NCBI RefSeq assembly: GCF_030546695.1
Contig: NZ_JAUOTP010000005.1
Location: forward strand, 186,001-250,000
Direction: 5' to 3'
Source of the DNA: Sphingomonas natans
GTDB taxonomy: Bacteria > Pseudomonadota > Alphaproteobacteria > Sphingomonadales > Sphingomonadaceae
DNA length: 64,000 nucleotides
Within the stretch, counting starts at the first letter, position 1. Each line of letters opens with the position of its first letter. Below the pieces are notes generated by a model. The model saw only the letters and a program-made list of their open reading frames with translations, was not told where the DNA came from and ran no database searches. The translations under genes were made by a program, and so were the position numbers. Shown one piece after another: positions 3,164 through 18,301 of the stretch.

Positions 3164-3177
3164 CGTCACAGTGCCTT

Positions 3178-4926
3178 TCAACGAGGGATGACGGGCAGGT
3201 CGACCGCCGAGGGGTGGGCGGCGTCCGCATAGACGCTGATCGTCTTGGCCAGCCCCGGATCCCGCGCCCGCTGGCGGGGATCCGCGCCGGTGATCGTCAG
3301 CTGGACGCGATGCCCCGCCTTGAAGATGTACGAGGTTGGCATCAGGTCGATGTCCAGCTTGACCGGCTCGCCGGGGGTGAGCGGCGCGGCATCCTCGGCG
3401 AAGGCGCGATGCCACGGCACACCCGTCGGCATCGCCCACGGCGCGGTCGTCGTCGCGCGCAGCGACGCCTTGAGCCGCCCCTCGGTGACGACCACGACCG
3501 TCCCGTCCAGCGCGACATCCTCGAGATAGGCGAACACATCCGCATCGCGCGCGTCGGCGGCCATCCAGACGGTGGCGACCGGATGCCCGGTGACTTCCTT
3601 GTTCGCGCCGAGCACCTTGTCGGCAAAGCTGACGCCCGCGCCCGCATTGTGGCACGGCTGGGCGAACGGCCCGTCATTCTCGGTCGGGCAATGCACGTCA
3701 TAGTTGACCGCAAAGCTGGCGGGCTTGGCGCTGCCGGCCCGTTCCCCGAGCGTCCCCGCCCCGAAGAAGCGCCGCTCGGTCCGCGTGCCGGCCAGCGGCC
3801 AGCTCGTGGTCGTCCGCCACGCCGTCGCGGCGGGCGCCCCGATCGTGAAATAATGGATCGGCGGCTCGCTTGTGAAGCCGGTGTCGATGCCCTTCAGCTC
3901 GGCATCGAAGAAGCGGTGGACCTCCTCGAACAGCGGAAAGTCGTCGTTCGTGCAATGCTGCCACGGGCCGATCAGGATGCGCGCGTCGGGCACGTTCATC
4001 CGCGCGATCAGCCCCTGGTCGCGCAACTCGTCATACCAGCCGCCGAGAATGTAGAGCGCCACGCCCGACCGCCGGATCTGGTCGGCATAATCGGCGGCGC
4101 TGCCTTCCTGCCAGAAGCGGCTGGCGACCAGCGACGAGAAGCTGTCGCGATAGGGCAGCTGCTTCCACATCTCGAGCAGGTTGGTGGAGCGCTGATGCTC
4201 CTCCGCCGCCTGGCGCAGCATCGTTTTGTCCGCATCGCCCTCGACCGGGACCGTATCCATGTCCTGCGCGATCGTCCGCGACGGCCCCGTCCCCCATTGC
4301 GCGAAGATGCCGCCGCGCCGGAACGGATCATATTTGTGCCACGAGAAGCAGCCCGCGAAGACCGCCTTCAGCGCGGGCGGCCGCACCGTGATCGCGTGCA
4401 TCGCCGCGTCGCCCGTATTTGAGCAGCCATAGATGCCGACCTTGCCGTCCGACCAGGGCTGCGCGGCCAGCCACTGCGTGATCTCGTACGCGTCCTGCGC
4501 CTCGTTGCGATCGTGATAGCCGCGCCGCTCGCCGAACGACTGGCCGTTGCCGCGCCGCGCGATCTGCACGACGACATAGCCATATTTGGCGAGGTTCGGC
4601 AGGTCGCGCAGCCCCGGCTCGGTGCCTCGGCGCGTCGGATCCGGCGCGATATTGAGCGCGCCGTGCCAGATCACCGGAAAGCGACCGTCCGCCGCCTTCC
4701 CGCCGCGCGCCGGCCGGTCGATGCGCAGCGCGATCTTCACCCCGTCGCGCATCGGCAGATAGAGGCTGTGCGAGACGATCTCGGGAAAGGCTTCCAGCGG
4801 CGCATAATGCCCGAAGGATGGCGCGGATGTCGTGGCCGGTGGCGGCGCGGACGAGACTGGCTCGGCGCGCGCCGCCGACACGCCCGCGAAGGCCAGCGCC
4901 AGCGCAACCAGCAGTCGGCGCATCAC
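3178..4926 (-). CDS. Exported CocE/NonD-type X-Pro dipeptidyl-peptidase-like serine hydrolase
   Basis: A 582-residue protein of the CocE/NonD (S15-like) family. It has a signal peptide (MMRRLLVALALAFAGVSAARA), an alpha/beta-hydrolase domain over about 50-345 and a C-terminal jelly-roll domain over about 360-580. The likely triad is Ser169 in GCSNTG, Asp299 in GGWYDE and His324 in GPWQHCT, in the order and spacing of cocaine esterase-type enzymes. Known members hydrolyse esters, beta-lactam side chains or X-Pro peptides. The start codon overlaps the stop of the TonB receptor (ATGA, 4923-4926), so the two are translationally coupled. The enzyme probably hydrolyses what the receptor imports into the periplasm. 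Confidence 0.88.
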   Translation of the reverse strand: MMRRLLVALALAFAGVSAARAEPVSSAPPPATTSAPSFGHYAPLEAFPEIVSHSLYLPMRDGVKIALRIDRPARGGKAADGRFPVIWHGALNIAPDPTRRGTEPGLRDLPNLAKYGYVVVQIARRGNGQSFGERRGYHDRNEAQDAYEITQWLAAQPWSDGKVGIYGCSNTGDAAMHAITVRPPALKAVFAGCFSWHKYDPFRRGGIFAQWGTGPSRTIAQDMDTVPVEGDADKTMLRQAAEEHQRSTNLLEMWKQLPYRDSFSSLVASRFWQEGSAADYADQIRRSGVALYILGGWYDELRDQGLIARMNVPDARILIGPWQHCTNDDFPLFEEVHRFFDAELKGIDTGFTSEPPIHYFTIGAPAATAWRTTTSWPLAGTRTERRFFGAGTLGERAGSAKPASFAVNYDVHCPTENDGPFAQPCHNAGAGVSFADKVLGANKEVTGHPVATVWMAADARDADVFAYLEDVALDGTVVVVTEGRLKASLRATTTAPWAMPTGVPWHRAFAEDAAPLTPGEPVKLDIDLMPTSYIFKAGHRVQLTITGADPRQRARDPGLAKTISVYADAAHPSAVDLPVIPR

Positions 4927-7652
4927 CAGGTCTTCCGAACGCTCACCGCCAGCATCCGCCCAACCGGGTTGGCCGCAGTCGCGTCATAGCCGCCGCTGCC
5001 GTTACCCGAGGGCGCGATGTTCACATAAGGCGGGTCGATGTCGAAGAGGTTGCGCACCTCGAAGCCGACCACGAGCTTGCCGCCCGTGAAGCGCTTCGAT
5101 CCGTCGCCGTCGATCGTCCAGCCGACGCTGAAGTCGATCGGCGTATAGCTCTTCACCGACTCCACCGGGGTCACGGCGTTGTTGGTGTAACCGCCGACAT
5201 GCGTCGCGGTCAGCTGCATGCGCACGTCCTTGTAATCCCAGGTAACGCTGCCGCGCGCCTTGAACTTCAACGGGAAGAAGATCGTGTTCTTGCGATCGAT
5301 GAGCGTGCCGTTGGGCGAGATCGCCGCCTCGAACCGGGTCAAATAGGTCGCGTTCGCATTGAGCGTGAAGGTGCCGGCAGTCTGCGTCGGCACGCGCCAA
5401 TTGGCCGTGAAATCGAGGCCTTCGGTATAGGACACGCCGAGATTCTGGTTCCGCCCGTCCACGAACAACGTCACGTTGTTCGGCGATCCACCCGGAAAGG
5501 CACCCGACGAAAGCGTGATGCCCTGCGCCAGCAACTCCAGCACGCGATCGCGCGCCGCCGTACCCCGTAGGATGATGTTCGTGCCCGCAAACTGCGCCTC
5601 GCGCGACAGGATCGCGAGATCGGACAAATAGGTGTCGACCTGGTTGCTATATTTGACGTTGAAGTAGGTCGCGCTGAGGCGAAGCCGCGACGTCACGTCC
5701 CAATCCGCGCCCGTGGACCAGGTCGTCGCCTCTTCAGGCGCAAGGCCGAGGTTCGCACCCGACAAGGCCACGCCGATGATCGGCGCGCCCGCCGGGTTCT
5801 GGTAGGTCTGTACGAACAGATTGTTCGAATTGCCGTAGATCTGCGTGATCAGGGGCGCGCGGAACGATGTGCCGTAGCTGCCGCGCAGCGTGAAGCCGCG
5901 CACCGGCGACCAGTTGACGCCGAACTTCGGGTTGGTCGTCTTACCGACATCGCTATATTTGTCGTAGCGGACGGCGGCGTCGATCTCGAGCCGCTGGAAG
6001 CCCGGTATCGCGTTGCCGGAGCCGAAGATCGGCACGAGCAGTTCGGCATAGCCGGAATTCACTTCGCGATGGAAACGGCGGAAGACGACGGGCGTGCCGA
6101 CTGCGCCCCGGCCATTGCCGAGGTCCGTCTGGATCTTCTGTCCTTCATAGCCCGCTGCCAGTTTAACATCGCCGCCGGGCAGGCTGAGCAACGTGCCGTT
6201 GAGCCGCGCCTCATAGCCGTTGAACTGGTTGAGCGTCGGCGAGAAGGAGACGAAATTGCTGATCGCCGCCAACGTCGCGGCGCTGGTGCGGCCGAGGCCA
6301 TAGGGATCGAACGCCGTCGCCGGATTGTTGCTGGCAAGCGCCGCGTTCAGCGCGGCGTTGTTGAGCCCGCGATAGCTGTTCGACTGGTCGTTGCCGCGCC
6401 CGTAGGTGAAGATGCCCTCCAGCTGCCAGTTCTGCGGCAGTTTGATGCGCACGCCCGGCGTCACCTCCCAATTGCGCGCCCGTCCCGGATTCACGTTGAG
6501 CGGCAGATCGCGCAGGAAATTGTAGCCGAGCGTATAACTCGTGCCGGTAAAGCCCGCCGGGCGGACGAAGAAAGCGTTGGTCTGCGGCACGGTCAGCGTC
6601 GCCGAGGCGGACGCGGGAAGACGCGAGAATTTGCGCCTTGTGTAGAAGCCGTCGGCGAACACCGTCAGCCAGTCGTTCACCTCCTGCGTGAAGGTGAAGT
6701 TGGACGAGATATATTCCTGTTTCGGGAACAGGTCCTGGCCGATCACGTCATCGCACAAATTGGTCGTGCCCGCGACGAGCGAGCCCGCAGTCGCTTGGGT
6801 TACGCCCGCCGTAGGAATGGCATAGTTGATGCCGTTCGCGGTGATCGTCCCCGGATTGCAGCGGTTGACGCGATAGTCGCGGCCACCCGATCCGGTCTGG
6901 TTCGATCGGAAGAAGGTCCGGTCGTCGCCGCTCAGGTTCGACCGGCGGACCCATTCGCCCGCGACCATGAACTGACCGGTGCTCCACACCTTACCGAGCG
7001 CCAGGCCCGTCTGATATTCGGTGAAGTCGCCGCTGTCGGAAATGCCCGCGCGCGCCGACATCTCGCCGCCGTCGAGCGTACGGCGCGGGATGAGATTGAC
7101 CACGCCCGCCACAGCGTCCGAGCCGTAGATGGCGGACGCGCCGTCGGCGACCACCTCGACCCGCTCCAGCCCGAGCGTCGGGATCGCGGAGGGGTCGAAG
7201 GCGCGGCTGTTGTTGACGGCGCGGTGGCCGTCGACGAGGATCAGCGTCGCATAGGGGCCGATGCCGCGCAGGTTGACGCTGTTGCCATAGGTGATGTTGC
7301 CGTTGCCGCCCGATTGGCCGCGCGAATTTTCCGAAACGCCGAGATCGAAGACCTGCGGGATCTGGCGGATCAGGCGATCGGTGGTGACCGCGCCCGAGGC
7401 GACGACGTCGTTGCGGCCGAGCGAGATCACCGACGAGCCGACCGGGGCTGCGCCGCGAAGACGGCTGCCTGTCACGATGATGTCTTCGGCCTGCGTGACC
7501 TGCGTCGGCCCGGCTGCGGGCGCGTCCCCGGCGATCGGCGTCTCGGCCGGCGGCGGCGTGGTCTGCGAAAAGACAGGGGCACCCGCGGCCCCAAGCGCAA
7601 GCGCCAGAACCGAAACCGACATGCGGAAACGCTGCTGAGCCATCCTTATCAT
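4923..7652 (-). CDS. TonB-dependent outer-membrane receptor (first gene of hydrolase operon)
   Basis: A 909-residue receptor with a signal peptide ending near PVFSQ (about residue 30). A plug domain begins with EDIIVTGSRLRG and contains NLRGIGPYATLILVDGHR and GSDAVAGVVNLIPRR. A 22-strand barrel is expected to about the end. The last residue is Trp (SVRKTW), aromatic as required for BAM-dependent assembly although Phe is more usual. It heads an operon with the CocE-type enzyme and alpha/beta hydrolase, which suggests uptake of an organic ester or amide rather than iron. The MarR gene at 7767-8279 ends 115 bases upstream, and a palindrome at 7721-7730 lies between them. Confidence 0.92.
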   Translation of the reverse strand: MIRMAQQRFRMSVSVLALALGAAGAPVFSQTTPPPAETPIAGDAPAAGPTQVTQAEDIIVTGSRLRGAAPVGSSVISLGRNDVVASGAVTTDRLIRQIPQVFDLGVSENSRGQSGGNGNITYGNSVNLRGIGPYATLILVDGHRAVNNSRAFDPSAIPTLGLERVEVVADGASAIYGSDAVAGVVNLIPRRTLDGGEMSARAGISDSGDFTEYQTGLALGKVWSTGQFMVAGEWVRRSNLSGDDRTFFRSNQTGSGGRDYRVNRCNPGTITANGINYAIPTAGVTQATAGSLVAGTTNLCDDVIGQDLFPKQEYISSNFTFTQEVNDWLTVFADGFYTRRKFSRLPASASATLTVPQTNAFFVRPAGFTGTSYTLGYNFLRDLPLNVNPGRARNWEVTPGVRIKLPQNWQLEGIFTYGRGNDQSNSYRGLNNAALNAALASNNPATAFDPYGLGRTSAATLAAISNFVSFSPTLNQFNGYEARLNGTLLSLPGGDVKLAAGYEGQKIQTDLGNGRGAVGTPVVFRRFHREVNSGYAELLVPIFGSGNAIPGFQRLEIDAAVRYDKYSDVGKTTNPKFGVNWSPVRGFTLRGSYGTSFRAPLITQIYGNSNNLFVQTYQNPAGAPIIGVALSGANLGLAPEEATTWSTGADWDVTSRLRLSATYFNVKYSNQVDTYLSDLAILSREAQFAGTNIILRGTAARDRVLELLAQGITLSSGAFPGGSPNNVTLFVDGRNQNLGVSYTEGLDFTANWRVPTQTAGTFTLNANATYLTRFEAAISPNGTLIDRKNTIFFPLKFKARGSVTWDYKDVRMQLTATHVGGYTNNAVTPVESVKSYTPIDFSVGWTIDGDGSKRFTGGKLVVGFEVRNLFDIDPPYVNIAPSGNGSGGYDATAANPVGRMLAVSVRKTW

Positions 7653-7766: not shown

Positions 7767-8279
7767 CTACTCGAGAGCGAGGCAGATCTCGTACATCCGA
7801 TCCAACAGCCGATTGAGTACGCGCAATTCCTCGCCCGTCAGACGGCTAAGCACACGATCTTCGATCACCGACAGGTGATCGAGCAGCATTGTCAGGAACG
7901 CCTCGCCTTCCGGAGTCGTGAACAAGGCGTGCCGCCGCCGATCGCCTTCGGCCGGCACGCGGCGCGCGAAGCCGCGACGCTCGAGCTCGTTGACGATCAG
8001 CACCGCCGCCGACTTGTCGAGCAGCACCGCCTTCGCCGCTTCGGACTGCGAGATCCCGGGGTTCGCACTGATTAGCGCCAGCGTCGACATCATGCCCGAA
8101 CGCAGCCCTTGCCCCACCATAGCGGTGCCGAAATCGCGTCCGAAGTGCGTCTGGATTCGCCGCAGCCGGAAGCCGACGAGATCGCCGAGCCGCCCCAACT
8201 GGAGCGAGTCGCGCGCGGTACCGGCAGTTTCCGCGTCATTCACCGGCACAGCTTCTTCCGATTCTCTTCGCTTGACCAT
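7767..8279 (-). CDS. MarR-family transcriptional regulator
   Basis: A 170-residue winged-helix regulator. The core NPGISQSEAAKAVLLDKSAA is the HTH region (about residues 75-95), followed by the wing pattern LERRGFARRVPAEGDRRRHA that is diagnostic for MarR, and a C-terminal helix for dimerisation. MarR proteins usually repress an adjacent divergent operon and release DNA on binding a small aromatic or CoA-thioester ligand. This gene is divergent from the TRAP/CoA-transferase operon, with 61 bases between the two starts, so that operon is its most likely target. The TonB receptor behind it (start 7652) is on the same strand and could be a second target. Confidence 0.88.
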   Translation of the reverse strand: MVKRRESEEAVPVNDAETAGTARDSLQLGRLGDLVGFRLRRIQTHFGRDFGTAMVGQGLRSGMMSTLALISANPGISQSEAAKAVLLDKSAAVLIVNELERRGFARRVPAEGDRRRHALFTTPEGEAFLTMLLDHLSVIEDRVLSRLTGEELRVLNRLLDRMYEICLALE

Positions 8280-8284
8280 TGGTT

Positions 8285-8296
8285 GTAGAACTCTAC
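8285..8296. promoter_or_regulatory. Near-perfect 12-bp palindrome in the MarR/TRAP intergenic region
   Basis: GTAGAACTCTAC is symmetric except for its two central bases. It lies 6 bases upstream of the marR start and 45 bases before the TRAP start, the usual position of a MarR autoregulatory operator. The assignment to MarR is inference from position only. Confidence 0.3.
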
Positions 8297-8340
8297 TATT
8301 ATCGACAAATAAAAAACGCCATCACCGAGAGGACCTAGCC

Positions 8341-8835
8341 TTGGGAAAGCCAAATCCCGTCGCGGATCGACCGCCGCCGCCCCAAGGGCCGCTGGCGCGG
8401 GCCGCGTTCCTCGTTGGTGGTGCCGGCCTGCTGATCGCCACCCTTATCGATTCGCTCGCCGTGCTCGGTCGCCATACGGGCTTCGCTTTCCTTGGATCGA
8501 TCGAGATCGTCCAGTCCGCCGTCGTCCTCGCCGCGTCGGGCGCGATCATCGTCGCCACGCTCGCGCGCAGCCACGCCGCCGTCCACATCCTCACCGATCG
8601 CCTGTCGCCCGCCGCCGCCGGCCGCCTCGCCCATATCGCCGCCGCGCTCGCGGCGATCGTCTTCCTGTGCATGGCTATCGGTAGCGGCTGGCTGATGGTC
8701 GAAGGCTGGGGCGGGCACGAACGCACCGAATTGCTTCACATTCCGTTCCGCTGGCTGCGCCTGATCTGGACGCTCGCGGCCGCGCTCGTTGCGGTCCTCT
8801 TCCTGATCCAGCCCTGGCGGAGGCGCGGCGCATGA
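8341..8835 (+). CDS. dctQ: TRAP transporter small membrane subunit (DctQ type)
   Basis: About 164 residues with four predicted transmembrane segments (AAFLVGGAGLLIATLIDSLA, IVQSAVVLAASGAIIVATLA, a third around IAAALAAIVFLCMAIGSGW, a fourth around LIWTLAAALVAVLFLI), as in DctQ subunits. I chose the TTG at 8341 because GAGAGGA at 8326-8332 gives a well-placed ribosome-binding site and no ATG fits. The frame is open further upstream but there overlaps the marR gene. The stop overlaps the start of dctM (ATGA at 8832-8835). DctQ forms the membrane complex with DctM and is powered by a sodium gradient. Substrates of the family are organic acids. Confidence 0.82.
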   Translation: MGKPNPVADRPPPPQGPLARAAFLVGGAGLLIATLIDSLAVLGRHTGFAFLGSIEIVQSAVVLAASGAIIVATLARSHAAVHILTDRLSPAAAGRLAHIAAALAAIVFLCMAIGSGWLMVEGWGGHERTELLHIPFRWLRLIWTLAAALVAVLFLIQPWRRRGA

Positions 8836-10133
8836 GCGGTCTGATCGGCCTCCTCGGCATCTTCTGCCTGCTCGGTTTGCTGACGCTCGGCGTGCCGATC
8901 GGCGCCGCGCTCGGCTTTGTCGGCCTGGGCGGCCTCGCGTTGATGATCTCGCCCGAGGCCGCGATCATCAAGCTCGGCGTAATCTCGTTCGAGACCGTCT
9001 CGCGCTACGAGCTCGGCGTGCTGCCGCTTTTCCTGCTCATGGCGCACCTGTGCTTCGCCGCGGGCGCGAGCCGCGACTTCTTCGATGCCGCCGCGCGCTT
9101 CATCGGCCACAAGCGCGGCGGGCTCGCGCTCGCCTCGATCGGCGGGTGCGCGGGCTTCGGCGCGATCAGCGGGTCCAGCCTCGCCACCGTCGCCACGATC
9201 GGCTCGGTCGCGCTCCCCGAAATGCGCCGCGCTGGCTACAAGCCCGGCTTCGCCGCGGGCGCGCTGGCGGCGGGCGGCACGCTCGGCTCGCTCGTGCCGC
9301 CGTCGGGCGCGCTGATCGTGTTCGGCATCATCGCCGAGCAATCGATCGGCAAGCTCTTCGCCGCCTCGATCATCCCCGGAATCAGCCAGGCGCTCTTCTA
9401 CATGGCGACGATCGCGATCCTGTGCGCCTTCCGCCCCGAATTCGGCCCGCCCGCCGCGCGCGCCACCTGGCCCGAGCGCCGCGCCGCCTTCCGCCGCATC
9501 GTCGACGTGCTGTGCCTGATCCTGTTCGTGATCGGCGGGCTCATGATCGGCTGGTTCACGCCGACCGAAGCCGCCTCCGTCGGCGTGATCTGCGCCACCT
9601 TGCTGTGGATCTTCCGCGGCGGCTTCACGCTCGCCGGCTTCGGCGAGGCGCTCGGCTCGACGTTGCGCACCAGCGGCATGATCTATGTCGTCGTCATCGG
9701 TGCGATCCTGTTCGCCGCCTTCATCAGCGTCACCGGCCTCGCCGACCAAGCCGCCAGGGTCGTGACCGATCTCCACGCCAGCCCCACGCTCGCCATCCTC
9801 GCGATGGCCGTGATCCTGCTCGTGCTCGGCTCGTTCCTCGACGGGCTCGCGCTGATGCTGCTGACGACGCCGATCTTCCTGCCGATCGCCGTCAGCCTGC
9901 ACATGAGTCCCGTGTGGTTCGGCATCTTCATCGTCCGCACGATGGAGATCGGCTTCGTCCACCCCCCGCTCGGGCTCAACGTCTACGTGATCCAGGGCAT
10001 CGCCAAGGACATCTCGCTCGGCACGATCTTCCGGGGCGTCGCGCCCTTCCTCGTCGCCGATTTCCTCCATCTGGGCCTGCTGATCGCCTTCCCCGCGCTC
10101 AGCCTGTGGCTCCCCGGCATGACGGCGGGCTGA
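8832..10133 (+). CDS. dctM: TRAP transporter large permease subunit (DctM type)
   Basis: A 433-residue, strongly hydrophobic protein with about 12 transmembrane segments. It has the DctM hallmarks: SLATVATIGSVALPEMRRAG, the GTLGSLVPPSGALIVFG re-entrant motif and a C-terminal RTMEIGFVHPPLGLNVYVIQ region. It is the sodium-coupled translocating subunit and partners with DctQ (overlapping upstream) and the DctP lipoprotein (starting 4 bases downstream). The operon context with CoA-transferases suggests a carboxylic acid that is activated to its CoA ester after import. Confidence 0.92.
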   Translation: MSGLIGLLGIFCLLGLLTLGVPIGAALGFVGLGGLALMISPEAAIIKLGVISFETVSRYELGVLPLFLLMAHLCFAAGASRDFFDAAARFIGHKRGGLALASIGGCAGFGAISGSSLATVATIGSVALPEMRRAGYKPGFAAGALAAGGTLGSLVPPSGALIVFGIIAEQSIGKLFAASIIPGISQALFYMATIAILCAFRPEFGPPAARATWPERRAAFRRIVDVLCLILFVIGGLMIGWFTPTEAASVGVICATLLWIFRGGFTLAGFGEALGSTLRTSGMIYVVVIGAILFAAFISVTGLADQAARVVTDLHASPTLAILAMAVILLVLGSFLDGLALMLLTTPIFLPIAVSLHMSPVWFGIFIVRTMEIGFVHPPLGLNVYVIQGIAKDISLGTIFRGVAPFLVADFLHLGLLIAFPALSLWLPGMTAG

Positions 10134-10137
10134 GGCG

Positions 10138-11172
10138 ATGCGCATCCTGATCCTCGTTCTGTTCGCCCTACTCGCCGCCTGCCAGCGCACGCCGCCCGGC
10201 GAGCACATGCTCACCTACGCGACCCCCTACCCGCCGAGCCACCCGTTCAGCCGCGCCGACATCACCTGGATGAAGTGGGTCGAGGAGAAGAGCCACGGCC
10301 GCCTGCGCATCCGCCCCTATTGGGCGGGTTCGCTCCTCTCGTCCGACATGAGCATGGCCGAGATCCGTCACGGCGTCGCCGATATCGGCTTGATCACGCC
10401 CATCTACACGCGCGGCAGCGTCCACCTGCTGCGCGTCCAGTCGGGCTTCTACGGCGGCGTGCGCACGATCGACGATCAGGTGAAGATCTACGACTGCCTC
10501 CAGGCCCGCTTCCCCGAGATCGGCCGCGAGATGGACGGGCTCGTCACCCTCGCCGTGCAGGGCGGCAATTTCCCAGGCGTGCTCACCCGCGGCAAGCCGA
10601 TCCGCAGCCTCGAGGATTTCCGTGGCCTGCGCCTGCGCGCGCCGACCGAGAATAACGAGATCCTCCAGGCGCTCGGCACCGATCCGGTCAACATGCCGAT
10701 GGCCGAGGTCTATTCGGCGCTCGCCAAGGGCATCATCGACGGCGTCGTCGCGCCCGCCGACACGATCAAGAGCCTCCACTTCAACGAGGTCGCCAAGAGC
10801 TTCTCGTCGATCCGCTTCAGCCGCGGCGCCTATCCCGCGCGCGCCATCTCGGAAAAGACGTTCAGGCGCCTGCCCCCTGATCTCCAGCGCATCCTGCTGG
10901 CCTCGCGCCGCGTCTGGGAAGCCGCGCTGGAGACCGAGCTCCTGAAGGCCGAGGCTGCCGGCATTGCCTTCGGGCAGGAGAAGGGCATCCAGGTCGCACC
11001 GATGCCGCCCGCCCAGCAGGTCCGCTTCGACGCGCTCTACAACAAGTTCGCGCTCGATCAGGCGCGCCGCCTCAAGTCGCTCGACATCGAGGCCGTCCCC
11101 GTCTTCGACGAGGCCCAGCGCCTCGTCGCCAACCCCGCCTCGGCCGCGCGCTGCGCCGCCGCCTCTCTGTGA
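10138..11172 (+). CDS. dctP: TRAP transporter substrate-binding protein (DctP type), predicted lipoprotein
   Basis: A 344-residue DctP-family solute-binding protein. The N-terminus has a short hydrophobic stretch with lipobox LLAAC (Cys15), so it is predicted to be lipid-anchored rather than free in the periplasm as most DctP proteins are. Family features include HPFSRADITWMKWVEEKSHG, GVADIGLITP, the conserved LRLRAPTENNEI segment containing the carboxylate-binding Arg, and YSALAKGIIDGVVAP. It should bind an organic acid and deliver it to DctQM. The ligand cannot be read from sequence alone. Confidence 0.88.
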   Translation: MRILILVLFALLAACQRTPPGEHMLTYATPYPPSHPFSRADITWMKWVEEKSHGRLRIRPYWAGSLLSSDMSMAEIRHGVADIGLITPIYTRGSVHLLRVQSGFYGGVRTIDDQVKIYDCLQARFPEIGREMDGLVTLAVQGGNFPGVLTRGKPIRSLEDFRGLRLRAPTENNEILQALGTDPVNMPMAEVYSALAKGIIDGVVAPADTIKSLHFNEVAKSFSSIRFSRGAYPARAISEKTFRRLPPDLQRILLASRRVWEAALETELLKAEAAGIAFGQEKGIQVAPMPPAQQVRFDALYNKFALDQARRLKSLDIEAVPVFDEAQRLVANPASAARCAAASL

Positions 11173-11183
11173 CCGGAAACACA

Positions 11184-12431
11184 ATGGACCTCTCCACGCT
11201 CGGCCGCCCACTCGAAGGGCTCCGCGTCATCGATCTCACCCGCGCGCTTGCCGGCCCCTACGCGACCCTCTTGCTCGCCGGCCTCGGCGCGCAGGTGATC
11301 AAGGTCGAGGATCCGCGCGGCGGCGATCTCGCCCGCGAGAACAGCCCGTATGTGGGACGCGACGGCATCGTCGTCGAGCGCAAGCATGACGACGACGTCT
11401 CGATCTCGCACCTCACTCGCGGGCGCGGCAAGCATGGCGTAAGCCTCAATCTGAAAGCCCCCGAAGCGGCCGGCATCTTCGCCGATCTCGTCCGCTCGGC
11501 CGACATCGTCGTCGAGAATTTCAGTGCCGGCACCGCCGATCGCCTCGGCGTCGGCTACGAGGCCGCGAAAGCCGCCAACCCGGCAATCATCTATTGCTCG
11601 CTCTCCGGCTTCGGCGCCGACGCGCCCGAGGGCGGCAAGGCGATGGACGTGATCATCCAGGCCTTGTCCGGCGCGATGTTCGCCAGCGGCGATCATGACG
11701 ATCCGCCTGTCCGCATCGGCGTGCCGATCGCCGACATGCTCGCGCCCGTCTTCTCGGTGATCGGCATCCTCTCGGCGCTCGAACAACGCCACCGCACCGG
11801 TGTCGGCCAGCATATCGACGTCTCGATGCTCGGCGCGCTCACCTCGTTCGTCGCGATCGAGAATTGGTCGGCAATGGCGGCGGCGGGCATGGGCGCCCGC
11901 ACCGGCCTCACCGTCCGCCGCCTCTCCCCCTTCGGCGTGTTCGAATGCGCGGACGGCTATGTCGCGCTCGTCGCCGTGCACGAGAAGATGGCACAGGGCC
12001 TGTTCCGCGCGATGGGGGCGCCAGAGCTGGGCGAAGAACCCCGCTTCGCCAGCCGCGACGCGCGCGTCGCCAATGCGCATGCGCTGGAAGACCGGATCAA
12101 CGCCTGGTCGCGGACATTGCCCGTCGCGGAGGTCGTCCGCTTGCTGGAGGCCGAGGGCGTCCCCACCGCCCCCGTCCGCCACCCGGAAGAAGCGCTGCTC
12201 GATGCCCGCGTCGTCGCGCGCGAGGAGACGATGCCGATCGCGCACCCGTCTTATCCCTCCACCGTCGACCTGCGCACCGCCGGCATCCCGATCCGCTTCT
12301 CGGGCGCGACGACGGGCTTCGATGACGTCCTCCCGGTCAGCATCGGCGAGCATAATGCGGACATCTACCGCGACTTGCTCGGCTACAGCGACGCGGACAT
12401 CGCCGCGCTGCAGGCGAAGGGCGTGATGTGA
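11184..12431 (+). CDS. CaiB/BaiF family CoA-transferase (first of three in operon)
   Basis: About 415 residues of a family III CoA-transferase: opening motif LEGLRVIDLTRALAGPYAT, LGAQVIKVEDPRGGD, the segment AMDVIIQALSG with the Asp expected to form the acyl-anhydride intermediate, and TGVGQHIDVSM. A GTG at 11169 in the same frame overlaps the dctP stop and is an alternative start; ATG 11184 has GGAA eight bases upstream. The enzyme would transfer CoA from a thioester donor to the imported carboxylate. The operon continues directly into the dehydratase-like fusion (overlap at 12428-12431), an arrangement that recalls FldA beside FldBC in phenyllactate dehydration. Confidence 0.9.
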   Translation: MDLSTLGRPLEGLRVIDLTRALAGPYATLLLAGLGAQVIKVEDPRGGDLARENSPYVGRDGIVVERKHDDDVSISHLTRGRGKHGVSLNLKAPEAAGIFADLVRSADIVVENFSAGTADRLGVGYEAAKAANPAIIYCSLSGFGADAPEGGKAMDVIIQALSGAMFASGDHDDPPVRIGVPIADMLAPVFSVIGILSALEQRHRTGVGQHIDVSMLGALTSFVAIENWSAMAAAGMGARTGLTVRRLSPFGVFECADGYVALVAVHEKMAQGLFRAMGAPELGEEPRFASRDARVANAHALEDRINAWSRTLPVAEVVRLLEAEGVPTAPVRHPEEALLDARVVAREETMPIAHPSYPSTVDLRTAGIPIRFSGATTGFDDVLPVSIGEHNADIYRDLLGYSDADIAALQAKGVM

Positions 12432-14827
12432 GCGCGTCGGTCGCGATCGACGCGCTGATCGCCGCCTTCGATCGGCCGGACGAGGTGGCCGCGCGGCTGT
12501 CGGCGACCGGGCACACGGTCGTCCGCACCCTCGGCAGCGACGCCCCGGTGGAGCTGATCCGCGCGACCGGCGCCGTGCCCGTCCGCCTCGTCGCGCCCGA
12601 AAGCGGCACCACCCCACGCGCCGATGCGATCGCGGGCCAAGCGCTGGGCGCGCGCGGCCGGCGGCTGCTCGAACGCCTGCTCGATCCCGACCTCGCCGAA
12701 ATCCCGATCCTGATCACCCATTCCGACGCCGAACAGCCGGCGCTCCACGCCGCGATCCGCGAACTGCGGCGGTTGGGCGAACCCGCCCCGGCGCACGTCT
12801 ACCTCCTCGACCTGCTCCACCTCGATCGCCCCTCTTCCGCCGACTATAACCGCCTCCGGCTGGCGGAATGCGCCGACTGGCTGACCGGCATCGCCGCCGC
12901 GCCCGGCGACATCGCCGGCGAGATCGCGCGTTCCGCCGAGCAAGCGGCCCTGCTCGCAAAGATCGACGCGCTCCGCACCGCCCCCGCACCGCGCCTTACC
13001 GGCGCACAGATGCTCGCCATCGTCGGCACGGCCTCGATCCTCCCGCCGGAAGAGCATATCGCCCACCTCCACACGATTCTCGCAGGCGCGGATGCCCTGC
13101 CGGCGCTCGGGAGCACCACCCGCGTCTATGTGACGGGCACCCCCCACGACAGCGCCGGCCTCTATCGCCGCATTGAAGCCACCGGCCGCCTGATCGTCGG
13201 CGAGGCCTGGCCCTCCCGCGACACGCCGCACGCCAGCACCGATTCTATGATATTGCTCGCCGCGCCCTTGCTCCGCGTCCCGCCGGTCCTGCGCATGCCC
13301 ACCGAAGCCGCACGCATGGCAGTTGAGCAAGCGACCGCAATCGGCGCTTCCGAGATCCTCCATCTCGCGCTGGAAGGCGACGAGCGCGCGCCGTGGGAGC
13401 TCGCCGCGCTTACCAAGGCCGCCCCCACCGCCATTCCCGTCCGCTCGCTCCGCCTCAAGGCGCTCGATACGCCCGATCTCGACGCCCGCCTGCGCGGCGA
13501 TGAACCTGCTCGCCCAGCCAAGCCTAGCCCACCCAAATCAACTGCCCCTGTCCCCGCCGACAAGCGCCAGGCTCGCAGCCGCAAGTCGCTCGCCTCGGTC
13601 GCCACTTTCGGTACCTATCAGCGCGAATGGTTCGGCGAGGTCCGCGCGCGCGTCGCCGCCGGCGAGCCCTTCGCGATGGTCAATGCCAACGCGCCGCAGG
13701 AAATCCTCCGCGCGCTGGATATCCCGTTCGTCGTCAATCAATGGTGGGCGTCGATCGTCGCCGCCAAGCAGCAGTCGCGCCGCTATCTGGACCTGCTGCG
13801 CGAGCGCGGCTTCCCGACCGATGTCGAGGCGTATAGCGCACAGGGGCTCGCCGCGACGTTCGACATCGATCCCGACAACGCCCCCTGGGGCGGCCTCCCC
13901 ACGCCCGATTTCGTCCACGCGGTTGTCTCCAGCGATCCGACCCCCGCTTTGTTCGCGGAGTGGGCCGACGCCGCCGGTGCCGGCTGCTATCTCTACGAGC
14001 GCACCGTCGATCCCCGCCTCACGATCGGCACCGATTGGTGGGACGACCTGCCCGAGCGCTGGGACGAGGTGCTGGAGCCCGCCCGGATCGACCTGCTCGT
14101 CACCGAACTGCGCGACGTGATCGGCAGGCTGGAGCGCGCCACCGGCCGCCTCTTCTCGGCAGAGCGGTTCGAGGCGGTGATGACGCTCGTCAACGAGCAG
14201 GAGGACTATTACCGCCGCACCCGCGACATGATCGCCCGCGCCCGCCCCGCGCCGATCGGCATCGTCGACAGCATGCCCGCGACGATGGTCCCGCAATGGC
14301 ACCGCGGCACCGAATGGGCGCGCGACGCGGCCAAGGCCTTCCACGACGAGGTCGCCGACCGGATCGCGGCCGGCGACGCGGCGGTGCCCAATGAGCGTGT
14401 CCGCCTGATGTTCGTCGGCCGGGGCCTCTGGAGCGACATGGGCTTCTACCAGCGCTGGGAGGAAAGCCACGGCGCCGTGTTCGTCTGGTCGATGTATCTC
14501 GCGCTCGCCGCCGACGGCTATATCCGCAGCACCTCGGGCGGGCGCGATCCGATGCGCGCGCTCGCCGCCCGTTTCCTGACGATGGGCGACGAACTGCGCC
14601 TGCCCGGCTGGGCCGGGCCTTGGCATGTCCACGAGGCGAAGACGCACGGCGTCCACGGCGCGGTCGCGCTCGCCGATGCCGATCCGTTCGTAATTCGCGC
14701 GCTCCGCCACGCCGGCGTTCCGGTGCTCGAACTCGGCACAGACAATTTCAGCGCGAGCGCGGACGAGCAGGCGCAGGTCCACGCCCGCGTCACCGCCTTC
14801 ATCGAGGGGCTGGAGGTGCCCGCATGA
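12428..14827 (+). CDS. Two-domain 2-hydroxyacyl-CoA dehydratase-like protein lacking Fe-S cysteines
   Basis: A 799-residue protein made of two halves of the HgdA/HgdB-FldB/FldC fold joined by a Pro/Lys-rich linker (about 358-385). In the N-half, ELIRATGAVPVRLVAP is the family opening and ILITHSDAEQPALHAAIREL sits where the family normally has a His-Thr-Cys-Asp-type cluster ligand. In the C-half, FAMVNANAPQEILRALDIPF and ERGFPTDVEAYSAQG replace the Cys-containing segments, while EDYYRRTRD and LMFVGRGLWSD are retained. Only two cysteines exist in the whole chain (148 and 520), so a [4Fe-4S] cluster of the classical kind is unlikely. No ATP-dependent activator (HgdC/FldI type) is present nearby. 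The start overlaps the preceding CoA-transferase. It may be a lyase, a CoA-ester-binding partner or a new oxygen-tolerant variant; the reaction is unknown. Confidence 0.78.
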   Translation: MSASVAIDALIAAFDRPDEVAARLSATGHTVVRTLGSDAPVELIRATGAVPVRLVAPESGTTPRADAIAGQALGARGRRLLERLLDPDLAEIPILITHSDAEQPALHAAIRELRRLGEPAPAHVYLLDLLHLDRPSSADYNRLRLAECADWLTGIAAAPGDIAGEIARSAEQAALLAKIDALRTAPAPRLTGAQMLAIVGTASILPPEEHIAHLHTILAGADALPALGSTTRVYVTGTPHDSAGLYRRIEATGRLIVGEAWPSRDTPHASTDSMILLAAPLLRVPPVLRMPTEAARMAVEQATAIGASEILHLALEGDERAPWELAALTKAAPTAIPVRSLRLKALDTPDLDARLRGDEPARPAKPSPPKSTAPVPADKRQARSRKSLASVATFGTYQREWFGEVRARVAAGEPFAMVNANAPQEILRALDIPFVVNQWWASIVAAKQQSRRYLDLLRERGFPTDVEAYSAQGLAATFDIDPDNAPWGGLPTPDFVHAVVSSDPTPALFAEWADAAGAGCYLYERTVDPRLTIGTDWWDDLPERWDEVLEPARIDLLVTELRDVIGRLERATGRLFSAERFEAVMTLVNEQEDYYRRTRDMIARARPAPIGIVDSMPATMVPQWHRGTEWARDAAKAFHDEVADRIAAGDAAVPNERVRLMFVGRGLWSDMGFYQRWEESHGAVFVWSMYLALAADGYIRSTSGGRDPMRALAARFLTMGDELRLPGWAGPWHVHEAKTHGVHGAVALADADPFVIRALRHAGVPVLELGTDNFSASADEQAQVHARVTAFIEGLEVPA

Positions 14828-16011
14828 CCGCGCTGGAAGGCCTGCGCGTCGTCGATTTCTCGCGTTTCCTGCCCGGCGCCTATGCCAGTTGGGTCGCCGC
14901 CGACATGGGCGCCGACGTCGTCCGCATCGAGCATCCGCGCGAACTCGCCAAGCAGGCGGCGATGTTCGGCAAGGGTGCCGACATGGAGGCCGAACGCCGC
15001 CGCCGCGCGCGCCCGTCCTACGTCCGCAACAAGCGCAGCCTGCTGATCAATCCCGGCCACGCTCACGCGCACCGCGTCCTCCACCCGCTGATCGCGCGCG
15101 CGGACGTGCTGATCGAGGATTACCGTCCCGGCATCATGGCCGGCATGGGCCTCGGCTACGCGGCCATGGCGGCAATCAATCCCGGCCTCGTCTACTGCTC
15201 TGTCTCGTTCGCCGGCCAGACCGGCCCCCTCGCCGACCGCGCGGGGCACGATCCCGCCGCGCTCGCGCTCGCCGGCACGCTCTCGCGGCTCAATGGACTC
15301 CCCACGCCGACCCTCCCAAGTCTGCAGGTCGCCGACGTGCTGACCGGCGCGCACACGACGATCGCGATGCTGCTCGCTTTGCAGGCCAAGAGCCGCACCG
15401 GGCGCGGCCAGCATGTCGATGTCGCGATGAGCGATGCGAGTATGTCCCTCCTGCTCGTCAATCTCGGCCGCACCGACGATGCCGATGCCCTGCCCGAACT
15501 CGGCAAGTGGCACCCCAAGGGCGGTGTCTGGGTCTGCGCCGATGGCGGCTATCTGTGCACCACCGACATGGAGCCGCGTTATTGGGCGCGCTTCTGCGAG
15601 GCGATCGGCCGCCCCGATCTTGGCCCGCGCCAGCAGGACACGCCCCACCACCCCGACATGCAGCGCGAGATCGCCGCCGTGATCGCCACCCGCCCCCGCG
15701 ACGAATGGGTCGCCCTCCTCGCCACCGCCGACACGCAGGCGCAGCCCGTATTGTCGATGGCCGAGGCGATCGCCCACCCCCACCACCGCGCGCGCGGCAT
15801 GGTCGTCGACGTGACCCTCCCCGGCGCGGAACCGCTGACCCAGCTCGCTTTGCCGTTCCACCTGCTCGACACCCCCGCCGTCGCGCCCGTCGCCGCCGGC
15901 GATCCCGGCGCGGACACCGACGCGATACTCGCCGAACTGGGCCTCTCCGGCGATGCCGAGGCGCTCCGCGCCGCCGGCCTGTTCGACGACGCCAAGGGAG
16001 CCACAGCATGA
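14824..16011 (+). CDS. CaiB/BaiF family protein, alpha-methylacyl-CoA-racemase-like (second in operon)
   Basis: A 395-residue CaiB/BaiF protein opening with LEGLRVVDFSRFLPGAYASW. The segment TGPLADRAGHDPAALALAG matches the GHD-----L-G region of alpha-methylacyl-CoA racemases more closely than the YD----QA motif of ordinary CoA-transferases; TGRGQHVDVAMSDASM follows as usual. It could epimerise a 2-methylacyl-CoA rather than transfer CoA, but this needs a structure-based alignment. The ATG at 14824 overlaps the stop of the dehydratase-like gene and the stop overlaps the next start (16008-16011). Confidence 0.85.
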   Translation: MTALEGLRVVDFSRFLPGAYASWVAADMGADVVRIEHPRELAKQAAMFGKGADMEAERRRRARPSYVRNKRSLLINPGHAHAHRVLHPLIARADVLIEDYRPGIMAGMGLGYAAMAAINPGLVYCSVSFAGQTGPLADRAGHDPAALALAGTLSRLNGLPTPTLPSLQVADVLTGAHTTIAMLLALQAKSRTGRGQHVDVAMSDASMSLLLVNLGRTDDADALPELGKWHPKGGVWVCADGGYLCTTDMEPRYWARFCEAIGRPDLGPRQQDTPHHPDMQREIAAVIATRPRDEWVALLATADTQAQPVLSMAEAIAHPHHRARGMVVDVTLPGAEPLTQLALPFHLLDTPAVAPVAAGDPGADTDAILAELGLSGDAEALRAAGLFDDAKGATA

Positions 16012-17195
16012 CCCCCCTCGCCGGCATCACGATCCTCGACCTGACCCATGCACTGTCCGGCCCGACCTGCACCCAGATGCTCGCCCAGCTCGGCGCCGAA
16101 GTCATCAAGATCGAGCCCCCCAAGGGTGGCGACGACTTCCGCCATTATACCGAGCATGCCGGGCTCCCCGGCCTCAGCCTCCCCTTCGCCGCCGTCAACG
16201 CCGGCAAGCGCTCGATCGCGCTCGACCTCAAGAGTGAGGCCGGCCGCGCGATCCTGTTCGATCTCGCCGCGCGCTCCGATGTCGTCGTCGAGAATTTCCG
16301 TCCCGGCACGCTCGACCGGCTCGGCATCGGCTTCGACAGGCTGCGCGAGATCAAGCCGGCGCTGATCTGCGCGTCGATCACCGGCTTCGGCCAGTCCGGC
16401 CCGTTCCGCGATTGGGGCGCCTACGATCATATCGCCCAGGCCATGTCCGGCATCGCGATGATGAACCAGACAAGCGAAGGCCCGCTCAAGATCGGCATGC
16501 CGATCATCGACAGCTTCAGCGGCTATCTCGCCGTCATCGCCATCCTCTCGGCGCTGCGCCAGCGCGACCTGACCGGCGAGGGCGCCGTGCTAGACGTGGC
16601 GATGCTCGATGCGGCGCTGAAGCTCAATGCTGTCAACTTAAGCACTTATTTCTACACGGGAAATGTTCCGAAAGGCACCGGCAATCGTGGTTTCCGCCTG
16701 GTCGCCACCGCCGAATATTATCCCACCAGGGAGGGCTGGATCGCCCTCGGCGCCAACCACCAGCCCCAAGTCGAAGCCCTCTTCCGCGCGCTAGGCGCCC
16801 CAGACCTCATCGAAGACCCCCGCTTCCACGACCACCCCGCCCGCGTCGCCCATTATGACGAGCTCAAGGCCTGGCTCACCGAACGCCTCTCGCACCAGAC
16901 CGCCGCCGAATTGGAGACCCTCCTCACCACCGCCCGCATCCCCGCCGCCCGCCTCCGCGACATCGGCGAGATCGCCGAGGACCCTCACATGACCGAACGG
17001 GGCCTCCTCCAACCCGCCACCCTCCCCGGTCGCCACGACCCCATCACCGTCCTCGGCAACGGCTTCGCCCCCGCACCTTCTCACACCCGCCCCACCGTCC
17101 CCGCGCTCGGCGCAGACGGTCGCGCGATCCTCACCGAGCTCGGCCGCTCGCCTCGGGAGATCGATGCGCTGGAAGCAGCCGGCGTCCTCGGATGA
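16008..17195 (+). CDS. CaiB/BaiF family CoA-transferase (third in operon)
   Basis: A 395-residue family III CoA-transferase with LAGITILDLTHALSGPTCTQ, LGAEVIKIEPPKGGDDFRHY, NFRPGTLDRLGIGF, and the catalytic-Asp segment GAYDHIAQAMSGIAMM. It is a typical member, closer to formyl-, succinyl- or cinnamoyl-CoA-transferases than its racemase-like neighbour. Its start overlaps the preceding stop and its end overlaps the CapA-family gene (17192-17195), so five genes in a row are coupled by four-base overlaps. Donor and acceptor are not predictable from sequence. Confidence 0.9.
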   Translation: MTPLAGITILDLTHALSGPTCTQMLAQLGAEVIKIEPPKGGDDFRHYTEHAGLPGLSLPFAAVNAGKRSIALDLKSEAGRAILFDLAARSDVVVENFRPGTLDRLGIGFDRLREIKPALICASITGFGQSGPFRDWGAYDHIAQAMSGIAMMNQTSEGPLKIGMPIIDSFSGYLAVIAILSALRQRDLTGEGAVLDVAMLDAALKLNAVNLSTYFYTGNVPKGTGNRGFRLVATAEYYPTREGWIALGANHQPQVEALFRALGAPDLIEDPRFHDHPARVAHYDELKAWLTERLSHQTAAELETLLTTARIPAARLRDIGEIAEDPHMTERGLLQPATLPGRHDPITVLGNGFAPAPSHTRPTVPALGADGRAILTELGRSPREIDALEAAGVLG

Positions 17196-18301
17196 GCGAC
17201 CCAATCGAGATCCTGCTGCTCGGCGACCTGATTCTCGACGTTCCCGATCCGGATCACTGGCTCGCCGGCATCGCCCCGCTCACACGCGCCGCCGATCTCG
17301 TCATCGGCCATCTGGAGGTGCCCCACACGCGCCGCGGCCAGGAACTGCAAGGCGACGTCCCCGCCCCCGGCGCGGATCCCGATCATCTCGCCGCCCTCGC
17401 CCGCGCCAACATCCGCATGCTTTCGATGGCCGGCAATCACATCGCCGACTGCGGACCGGAGGGCATCGCCGACACGATCGCCGAACTCGCCCGCCTCGGC
17501 ATCGCGCATAACGGTGCCGGCGCCGACATCGTTTCCGCGAAAGCGCCGGCGCGGATACAGGTGAGTGGCCGATCCGTCAGCCTGCTCAGCTACAATTGCG
17601 TCGGCCCGGAGCTATCCTGGGCAGCCGCCGACCGCGCAGGATCCGCTTATGTAAACGTCCTCGCAGCCGACGGCGGCCCCTCCCGCCCCCAGGCCGACCT
17701 GGTCGAAGCCGATCCCGCCTCGGTCGCTTCCATGATCACAGACATCGTCGCGGAGCGCCCTCGCGCCGATCTCCTCGTCGTCGCCCTCCATAAGGGCATC
17801 ACCCATCGCCCCGCCGCGATCGCGCCCTACGAGCGCGCGCTTTCCGATGCCGCAATCGAGGCCGGCGCCGATGTCGTCGTCGGTCATCATGCGCACATCG
17901 CGCGGGGCATCGAATTTCACGACGGCAAGCCGGTCTTCCACGGGCTGGGCAACGGCGTGGTGGTGACTCATGCACTGAGCCCCGGCCAAGGCCACGCTGC
18001 GAGAGCGGAGTGGGTCGAAAGGCGCAAAAGCATGTTCGGGTTCGAGCCCGACCCGGCTTACGCGCTTGCACCTTTTCACCCCGAAGCGGCCAACGGCATG
18101 ATCGGAAAGCTGCTATGGCACGCCAACGGTCGAATAGAAGCGGGCTTCGTCCCGATATGGTTCGAACCGCCTGGGCGCCCCGTCCGGCCTAGCCCGCATC
18201 AGCGCACCGAGATCAAAGATTATATTATTCGGATTTCGATCGAGGCCGGTCTCGCGCCTTTGATCGCCGACGATCAGGGCTCTTGGATCTCGCTAAAATA
18301 G
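17192..18301 (+). CDS. CapA-family metallophosphoesterase-fold protein, cytosolic (paralogue 1)
   Basis: A 369-residue CapA/PgsA-like protein. Metal-site motifs of the calcineurin-like fold are present: LLLGDLILD (Asp), GHLEVP in place of the usual N-L-E, AGNHIAD, ALHKGI and VVGHHAHIARGIEF, then GKPVFHGLGN. No signal peptide or membrane segment is visible, unlike the membrane-bound CapA/PgsA proteins of poly-gamma-glutamate capsules. No capsule ligase genes (CapB/C) accompany it. As the last gene of the TRAP/CoA-transferase operon it probably has a catabolic role, perhaps as a hydrolase. Two paralogues lie at 26885 and 31265. Confidence 0.85.
   Translation: MSDPIEILLLGDLILDVPDPDHWLAGIAPLTRAADLVIGHLEVPHTRRGQELQGDVPAPGADPDHLAALARANIRMLSMAGNHIADCGPEGIADTIAELARLGIAHNGAGADIVSAKAPARIQVSGRSVSLLSYNCVGPELSWAAADRAGSAYVNVLAADGGPSRPQADLVEADPASVASMITDIVAERPRADLLVVALHKGITHRPAAIAPYERALSDAAIEAGADVVVGHHAHIARGIEFHDGKPVFHGLGNGVVVTHALSPGQGHAARAEWVERRKSMFGFEPDPAYALAPFHPEAANGMIGKLLWHANGRIEAGFVPIWFEPPGRPVRPSPHQRTEIKDYIIRISIEAGLAPLIADDQGSWISLK

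Follow-up and report, generated by a model that had tools for sequence, protein, structure and literature searches.

A fused protein of the 2-hydroxyacyl-CoA dehydratase/benzoyl-CoA reductase fold in Sphingomonas natans lacks the cluster cysteines and may be a cluster-free acyl-CoA enzyme

The stretch of Sphingomonas natans DNA analysed here (the window; 64,000 nucleotides of contig NZ_JAUOTP010000005.1) carries on its forward strand, at 12428..14827, an open reading frame (ORF) that runs from a GTG start to a TGA stop and encodes a 799-residue fused N+C protein of the HGD-D family (PF06050), free of the cysteines that hold an iron–sulfur cluster in its relatives. The start of the ORF overlaps the stop of an upstream family III CoA-transferase gene (11169-12431) by 4 bases. 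The original prediction, made from the DNA alone, had described a single chain with two halves like HgdA and HgdB, and Pfam, AlphaFold2, Foldseek and profile searches all agree with it. The protein scores 180.5 bits against the PF06050 gathering cut-off of 28.4, and the family matches the N-half alone (residues 39-340, E 2.9e-16) as well as the C-half alone (E 6.2e-36). An AlphaFold2 model with 42 fused sequences as input has a mean predicted local distance difference test score (pLDDT) of 89.1 and a predicted template-modelling score (pTM) of 0.91; when it was compared with the PDB by Foldseek, all 20 matches with E <= 0.001 were to HadB/C, BzdN/O, MbdN/O or DCCP, and the next match had an E of 0.04. 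The N-half (residues 1-370, 12428..13537, +) is BzdN/HadC-like, degenerate and fast evolving, and the C-half (residues 389-799, 13592..14824, +) is HadB/BzdO-like and strongly conserved, as judged by Pfam, profile searches and the ratio of non-synonymous to synonymous substitution rates (dN/dS); a linker (residues 369-388, 13532..13591, +) with a pLDDT under 50 joins the two. The assignment of each half to a subunit comes from profile searches and not from Foldseek chains: the C-half returned MbdO, HadB and BzdO, and a profile including the N-half returned BzdN (E 4e-49) and HadC (E 1e-42).

Relatives were collected by a scan of GTDB contigs that confirmed 110 stretches, the best 80 of which were used for locus counts. 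Three architectures occur: fused N-C, split N and C, and neighbouring N and C genes (two-gene). Among the best 80 loci, the same fusion is present as a single ORF of at least 700 residues in 41, which were used as fused; 29 were used as two-gene and 10 were left out because of a broken frame (L029), contig ends (L049, L056, L058, L066, L068) or because both genes were not picked (L074, L080, L084, L086). A further fused copy (L094/L005) stands outside the trees. The homologues, together with codon-position GC (0.74/0.53/0.87) and the selection on the gene, rule out a chance frame in GC-rich DNA. In 13 fused gene pairs, dN/dS is 0.14-0.42 for the N-half, where the values are rough in four pairs with dS > 1, and 0.04-0.18 for the C-half, which is the lower of the two in 13/13. 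Both halves are thus under purifying selection, the C-half more strongly, which indicates that the protein is in use and that its C-half is the more important of the two.

The residues that distinguish this protein from its relatives were located by alignment to the BzdNO benzoyl-CoA reductase. The portion of the BzdNO report used here (PMC11971306) gives C95, C128 and C380 as the cluster ligands of BzdO and E65 and H131 as acid/base residues near the cluster water. In the fused protein, the C95 position is occupied by E467 (13826..13828, +), which lies within the motif DVEAYS (residues 465-470), and is Glu or Asp in 45/45 fused sequences. S502 sits at the C128 position and is followed by D503 (S502-D503, 13931..13936, +), where Asp or Glu is found in 44/45. 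The loop that bears C380 is eight residues shorter, and directly after it comes D750-A751-D752 (14675..14683, +), with both Asp residues kept in 45/45. None of the three catalytic-subunit [4Fe-4S] positions is Cys in any of the 45 fused sequences. S470 (13835..13837, +) is likewise Ser in 45/45 fused sequences, and its position is Cys in 23 two-gene sequences and 16/18 split ones. The catalytic Glu (E65 in BzdO; E55 in HadB numbering by alignment) is replaced with Q438 (13739..13741, +) in an NQWW motif, this position being Gln in 91/92 family sequences and Glu in 4/4 outgroup sequences. H131 corresponds to T505, so neither member of the E65/H131 pair is retained.

The N-half gives the same picture. 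For BzdN, the same portion of the report (PMC11971306) lists C36, C73, C100, C263, C293 and C327 as ligands of an [8Fe-9S] cluster; the aligned residues in the fused protein are G36 (12533..12535, +), G74, D100, A260, P286 and D318. D100 lies within HSDAEQ (residues 98-103, 12719..12736, +). Across 71 N-half sequences, only 1 of 426 cells at these positions is Cys. In 16 of the 71, a Cys stands one residue after the C36 position and may be a remnant of the ligand. The prediction that HSDAEQ and DVEAYS stand where relatives carry ligating Cys is thus borne out in both halves by the alignment it had proposed, as is its count of only two cysteines, C148 and C520, one per half. Neither is at a ligand position, and C520 is Cys in only 7/42 fused sequences. 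Part of the substrate pocket is preserved: two of the residues that contact the thioester oxygen in BzdO, given as Y97, Y298 and Q274 in the part of PMC11971306 used here, are retained as Y469 (13832..13834, +) and Y690 (14495..14497, +), each Tyr in 96/96 aligned proteins.

We also searched for the ATP-dependent activator (component A). The host genome (4.56 Mb, 13 contigs, completeness 100) contains no PF01869 match by profile search and no second HGD-D protein. The activator model TIGR00241 exceeds its cut-off in 0/42 genomes (the host and 41 with fused genes), with a single weak match of 20.9 against 125.4 bits, and in 0/18 genomes with split genes, one of which (G683) has both split and fused genes; the controls of the activator search were positive in 5/14 known genomes. 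When three activators served as tblastn queries against 68 loci longer than 10 kb (39 fused, 26 two-gene, 3 split), no activator gene turned up. Of the three results named in the original prediction as refuting it, none was observed, the case against a bound Fe-S cluster being one from sequence. TIGR00241 is present in 29/29 genomes with two-gene operons, though not beside the operon. The host has two COX1 matches, which point to a respiratory organism and agree with the aerobic host that had been proposed.

The cysteine states across the family suggest that the cluster was lost more than once. At five Cys positions, 0/45 fused sequences carry any. Of 29 two-gene sequences, 23 have Cys at 467, 470, 502 and the third ligand position, with C504 present as well in 20 of these, and the remaining six, all from anaerobes (L071, L073, L076, L079, L089, L090), have replaced all five with N, D, G, V/A and D. 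The genomes of these six still hold activators, and their nearest relatives keep Cys. Among 18 split sequences, 15 retain four Cys but not the third canonical ligand, all five are present in one, and L113 and L116 have none; the canonical three are present in 4/4 outgroup sequences. In a tree built without the ligand columns and their neighbours, the fused sequences group together (support 100), as do the six cluster-free two-gene sequences (support 100), whose group is nested among Cys-bearing two-gene sequences. At least three state changes are needed when L113 is counted; L113 and L116 are on long branches and their placement is unsure. The approximately unbiased (AU) test rejects a single group of all cluster-free sequences (log-likelihood 49.8 lower, p 1.7e-5) on a set of 63, which held 18 of the 45 fused sequences; L113, L116 and the outgroup, with their long branches, were not part of it. 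From these alignments, cluster loss seems to have happened separately in the fused lineage and in some anaerobes. The original prediction had noted the missing cluster in an apparently aerobic host, but loss as a plain oxygen effect is rejected, since six anaerobic members lost the cluster and one aerobic split lineage still has four Cys out of the five and no activator. The fifteen C proteins of that lineage, from Sphingomonadaceae (L091, L093, L099-L105, L107-L112), retain CxxC and CxC motifs and might bind Zn or a cluster with all its ligands in place.

By sequence comparison, the fused protein is one member of a clade and not unique. The fused form is found in sphingomonads, Caulobacter, Niveispirillum and a few gamma- and betaproteobacteria, the split form mostly in Sphingomonadaceae, and the two-gene form (L053-L090) in anaerobes, mostly Clostridia; our search found no published name for these anaerobe N+C+CaiB operons. 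The family as a whole is patchily distributed. Matches occur in 7/385 whole genomes of the class and in 21/396 of the order, the host included and two of the 21 only at outgroup level, and no family match was found in six other genomes of the host's genus. The C-half of L053 is 44-45% identical to four proteobacterial C-halves, and mean column identity between anaerobes and Proteobacteria is 70% for the C-half (both in alignment A2). In the split form, a tandem CoA-transferase lies between N and C at several loci, as at L120:9881-11968 and L121:9866-11968, where a tandem family III CoA-transferase of about 695-700 residues separates a shortened N gene, annotated as a hypothetical protein, from the C gene. 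We had considered that some split C genes lack any N subunit, and rejected this because a shortened N was found upstream (L091, L093, L120, L121), strongly shortened and encoded further from the C gene, or beside the C gene (L092, L113, L116, L122). A 695-residue CoA-transferase of Novosphingobium sp. ES2-1, considered as a fusion with an N subunit, proved to be a tandem CoA-transferase.

The neighbourhood of the fused gene holds several CoA-transferase and transporter genes. The CoA-transferase that overlaps its start (11169..12431, +; CaiB/BaiF type) is the likely partner of the fused protein; its homologues lie upstream in L018 and L022 and are 76% and 79% identical. Downstream, second and third family III CoA-transferases (14824..16011 and 16008..17195, both +) are followed by a CapA/PGA_cap family protein (17192..18301, +); upstream is a tripartite ATP-independent periplasmic (TRAP) transporter (DctQ, DctM, DctP; 7918..11172, +), all of these identified by profile search. 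On the reverse strand are a CocE/NonD-type hydrolase (3178..4926), a TonB-dependent receptor (4923..7652) and a MarR-type regulator (7767..8279). Within ORF 7918-8832 the DctQ match is confined to residues 179-301, so the true start of this ORF is probably further downstream than 7918, and a reverse-strand ORF (2192-3655) has only sub-threshold matches, to poly(ethylene terephthalate) (PET)-hydrolase-like and platelet-activating factor (PAF) acetylhydrolase families. Across the 68 loci (tblastn, E < 1e-10; TonB, MarR and CocE matches may include paralogues), a family III CoA-transferase is present in 38/39 fused, 26/26 two-gene and 3/3 split loci, or 67/68 in all. Of the 39 fused loci, 36 have TRAP genes, 35 MarR, 29 a TonB receptor, 25 a CapA-like protein, 22 a CocE-like hydrolase and 6 a tannase. 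These counts bear out the expected CoA-transferase partnership, and the proposed search for similar fusions beside CaiB/BaiF and TRAP genes therefore gave a positive answer. The suggestion that the surroundings mimic the Fld system stands as far as the family III CoA-transferase next door, but the likeness goes no further. The CapA-like protein also occurs in 9/26 two-gene loci of anaerobes, and so accompanies the module in two phyla; in NCBIfam it weakly matches MslH, a lasso-peptide epimerase, at 86 bits where the cut-off is 700. Close to some of the two-gene loci there is a glycyl-radical enzyme, a radical S-adenosylmethionine protein that has Fer4 domains, a carrier of the MatC/CitMHS type or methyltransferases of the URO-D type (L060:2572-4956, L067:432-1727, L083:6896-7828, L078:13031-14116).

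The gene context names no substrate for the fused protein, and a literature search for a link to quinate gave nothing relevant. The split cluster of Novosphingobium sp. ES2-1 has a CocE hydrolase, two CapA proteins, a tannase/feruloyl esterase and TonB receptors as neighbours, and that of Croceicoccus marinus is followed by genes annotated as a p-hydroxycinnamoyl-CoA hydratase/lyase, an acetate-CoA-ligase-family protein and an aldehyde dehydrogenase. These neighbours suggest that the acids come from esters of plant phenolic acids, and the pathway probably handles acids released from plant esters.

Taken together, these observations suggested to us that the fused protein is an acyl-CoA enzyme that has the 2-hydroxyacyl-CoA dehydratase (HAD)/benzoyl-CoA reductase (BCR) fold but works without a cluster. 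Its chemistry would go through an oxyanion/enolate and not a radical, and the CoA ester it acts on would be supplied by the transferase; we put this at about an even chance. According to the part of PMC11574389 used here, alpha-hydroxy elimination requires loss of a weakly acidic beta-proton, for which HADs use a cluster-based radical. With no ligands, catalytic Glu or activator, the fused protein could not take this route; the retained fold and thioester-oxygen residues favour charge-stabilising chemistry, either enolate formation or attack on the carbonyl, and we infer that the protein acts on the same kind of molecule as its fold relatives. In the proposed sequence, the TRAP transporter would import a carboxylic acid, the adjacent family III CoA-transferase would load CoA onto it, and the C-half would take up the CoA ester in the old active-site channel, where Y469 and Y690 would stabilise negative charge on the thioester carbonyl. 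An acid/base residue would then drive a non-redox step via the enolate, which may be an isomerisation, an epimerisation, an elimination or a C-C/C-O cleavage. The best candidate is E467 at the old ligand site, because it is two residues from Y469, occupies a former ligand position and is acidic in all fused sequences. Neither an electron donor, an ATP-dependent activator nor a radical would be required, and the N-half would serve as a structural partner. The other cluster-free lineage has Asn at 467 and an acid at 470, so its solution would differ.

Several points weigh against this proposal. Residue roles were all derived from the alignment and not from the pocket geometry of the model, and the third thioester-oxygen contact of BzdO, Q274, is R665 in the fused protein. 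Position 467 is Asn in the six cluster-free two-gene sequences, Pro in L113 and Ala in L116, and this variation leaves a common base there unsupported. In L046, a fused locus of 10.5 kb, no CoA-transferase is present. Finally, PF01869 was matched in 18/41 genomes with fused genes, 15 of them over the cut-off; we take PF01869 to be a broad family that also covers kinases such as those for N-acetylglucosamine.

Other explanations were weighed against the same evidence. An unlikely one is that enzyme activity was lost and that the protein now binds CoA esters and serves the adjacent family III CoA-transferases as a scaffold or regulator. Loss of both the cluster and the catalytic Glu, a CoA-transferase gene adjoining in nearly every locus and the interleaved order N, CoA-transferase, C in split Sphingomonadaceae would all fit a non-catalytic partner, but the low dN/dS and 70% mean column identity of the C-half show a conservation well beyond what a scaffold would lead us to expect, and the conserved positions include the BzdO pocket residues. 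We regard as unlikely a second possibility, in which oxygen ligands (E467, S470, D503 and D750 or D752; N467, D470, D503 and a third Asp in the six two-gene cases) bind a mononuclear divalent metal that polarises the CoA ester. The replacements sit on the ligand positions themselves, and both the near-invariant acids and Ser of the fused sequences (45/45 each at 467, 470, 750 and 752; 44/45 at 503) and the N/D/G/D pattern of the six are what such a site could look like; there is, however, no His among the candidate positions, and the residue sets of the two cluster-free lineages differ. An ordinary 2-hydroxyacyl-CoA dehydratase, whose cluster is bound by different ligands or by a further subunit and whose activator is an ATPase that escaped recognition, would account for the PF06050 membership and for the annotation of split relatives under that name in sequence records. 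This is very improbable given that C148 and the poorly conserved C520 lie in different halves away from any ligand position, that no activator was found, and that E65 is replaced by Gln. A decaying pseudogene or recent non-functional fusion, as the lost catalytic residues might suggest, is scarcely credible for an intact 799-residue frame whose fusion recurs in 41 loci, with purifying selection on both halves in 13/13 pairs.

Returning to the cluster-free acyl-CoA enzyme, the separate loss in some anaerobes also argues that the fold has probably been reused for another reaction on CoA-linked acids. A bolder version, which we offer as quite doubtful, is that the fused protein would need no cluster, radical, ATP or activator for a reaction on a hydroxylated acyl-CoA that its anaerobic relatives perform, or once performed, with an Fe-S cluster, an oxygen-proof solution that would have arisen at least twice, in Proteobacteria on ester-bound plant acids and in gut anaerobes, with carboxylates at the old ligand positions as the new catalytic groups. 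If true, a redox cofactor would have been swapped for acid/base chemistry within one active site.

In the parts of two papers used here, the HAD/BCR fold is presented as cluster-dependent and radical-forming (PMC11971306, PMC11574389), and its evolution is described as a stepwise loss of sub-clusters (PMC11971306). Among the matches listed by searches of open-licence papers, we found no description of a cluster-free member of the fold, which is weak evidence of absence. A clade with no cluster at all, but with the CoA-ester pocket kept, strong selection and a CoA-transferase neighbour, would complete that series and offer a natural experiment on the chemistry open to the fold once iron is gone. 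The label 2-hydroxyacyl-CoA dehydratase, which automatic annotation gives to such proteins, would predict an anaerobic, activator-dependent reaction that the organisms carrying the cluster-free proteins very probably do not carry out; because three defining features of that class are absent, the fused protein should not be filed under it. The cluster of TonB receptor, ester hydrolases, TRAP transporter and CoA-transferases points to an uncharacterised catabolic pathway in sphingomonads.

Four known systems frame the fused protein. DCCP (PDB 6eno, 7yyl) has the same fold, but carries a six-Cys [8Fe-9S] cluster per subunit and has its own reductase, compared with two Cys in 799 residues here. 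HadBC of Clostridioides difficile (PDB 3o3m) likewise consists of two homologous same-fold subunits with a CoA-transferase partner, the C-half resembling HadB and the N-half HadC; unlike HadBC, the fused protein has no [4Fe-4S] ligands in either half, has Gln for Glu, joins the halves, has no activator gene and resides in an aerobic-type host. In the class I benzoyl-CoA reductase BzdNO (PDB 8s02), as far as the portion of PMC11971306 used here describes it, BzdO and BzdN are the counterparts of the C- and N-halves and the Y97/Y298 tyrosines are shared, whereas in the fused protein C95, C128, C380, E65 and H131 are replaced, all six BzdN ligand positions are empty and there is no BzdPQ-type activator. 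The two-gene N+C+CaiB operons of anaerobes share the NQWW motif, the pocket residues and the family III CoA-transferase neighbour with the fused protein; they differ in that they consist of two genes, most keep Cys, and their genomes hold activators.

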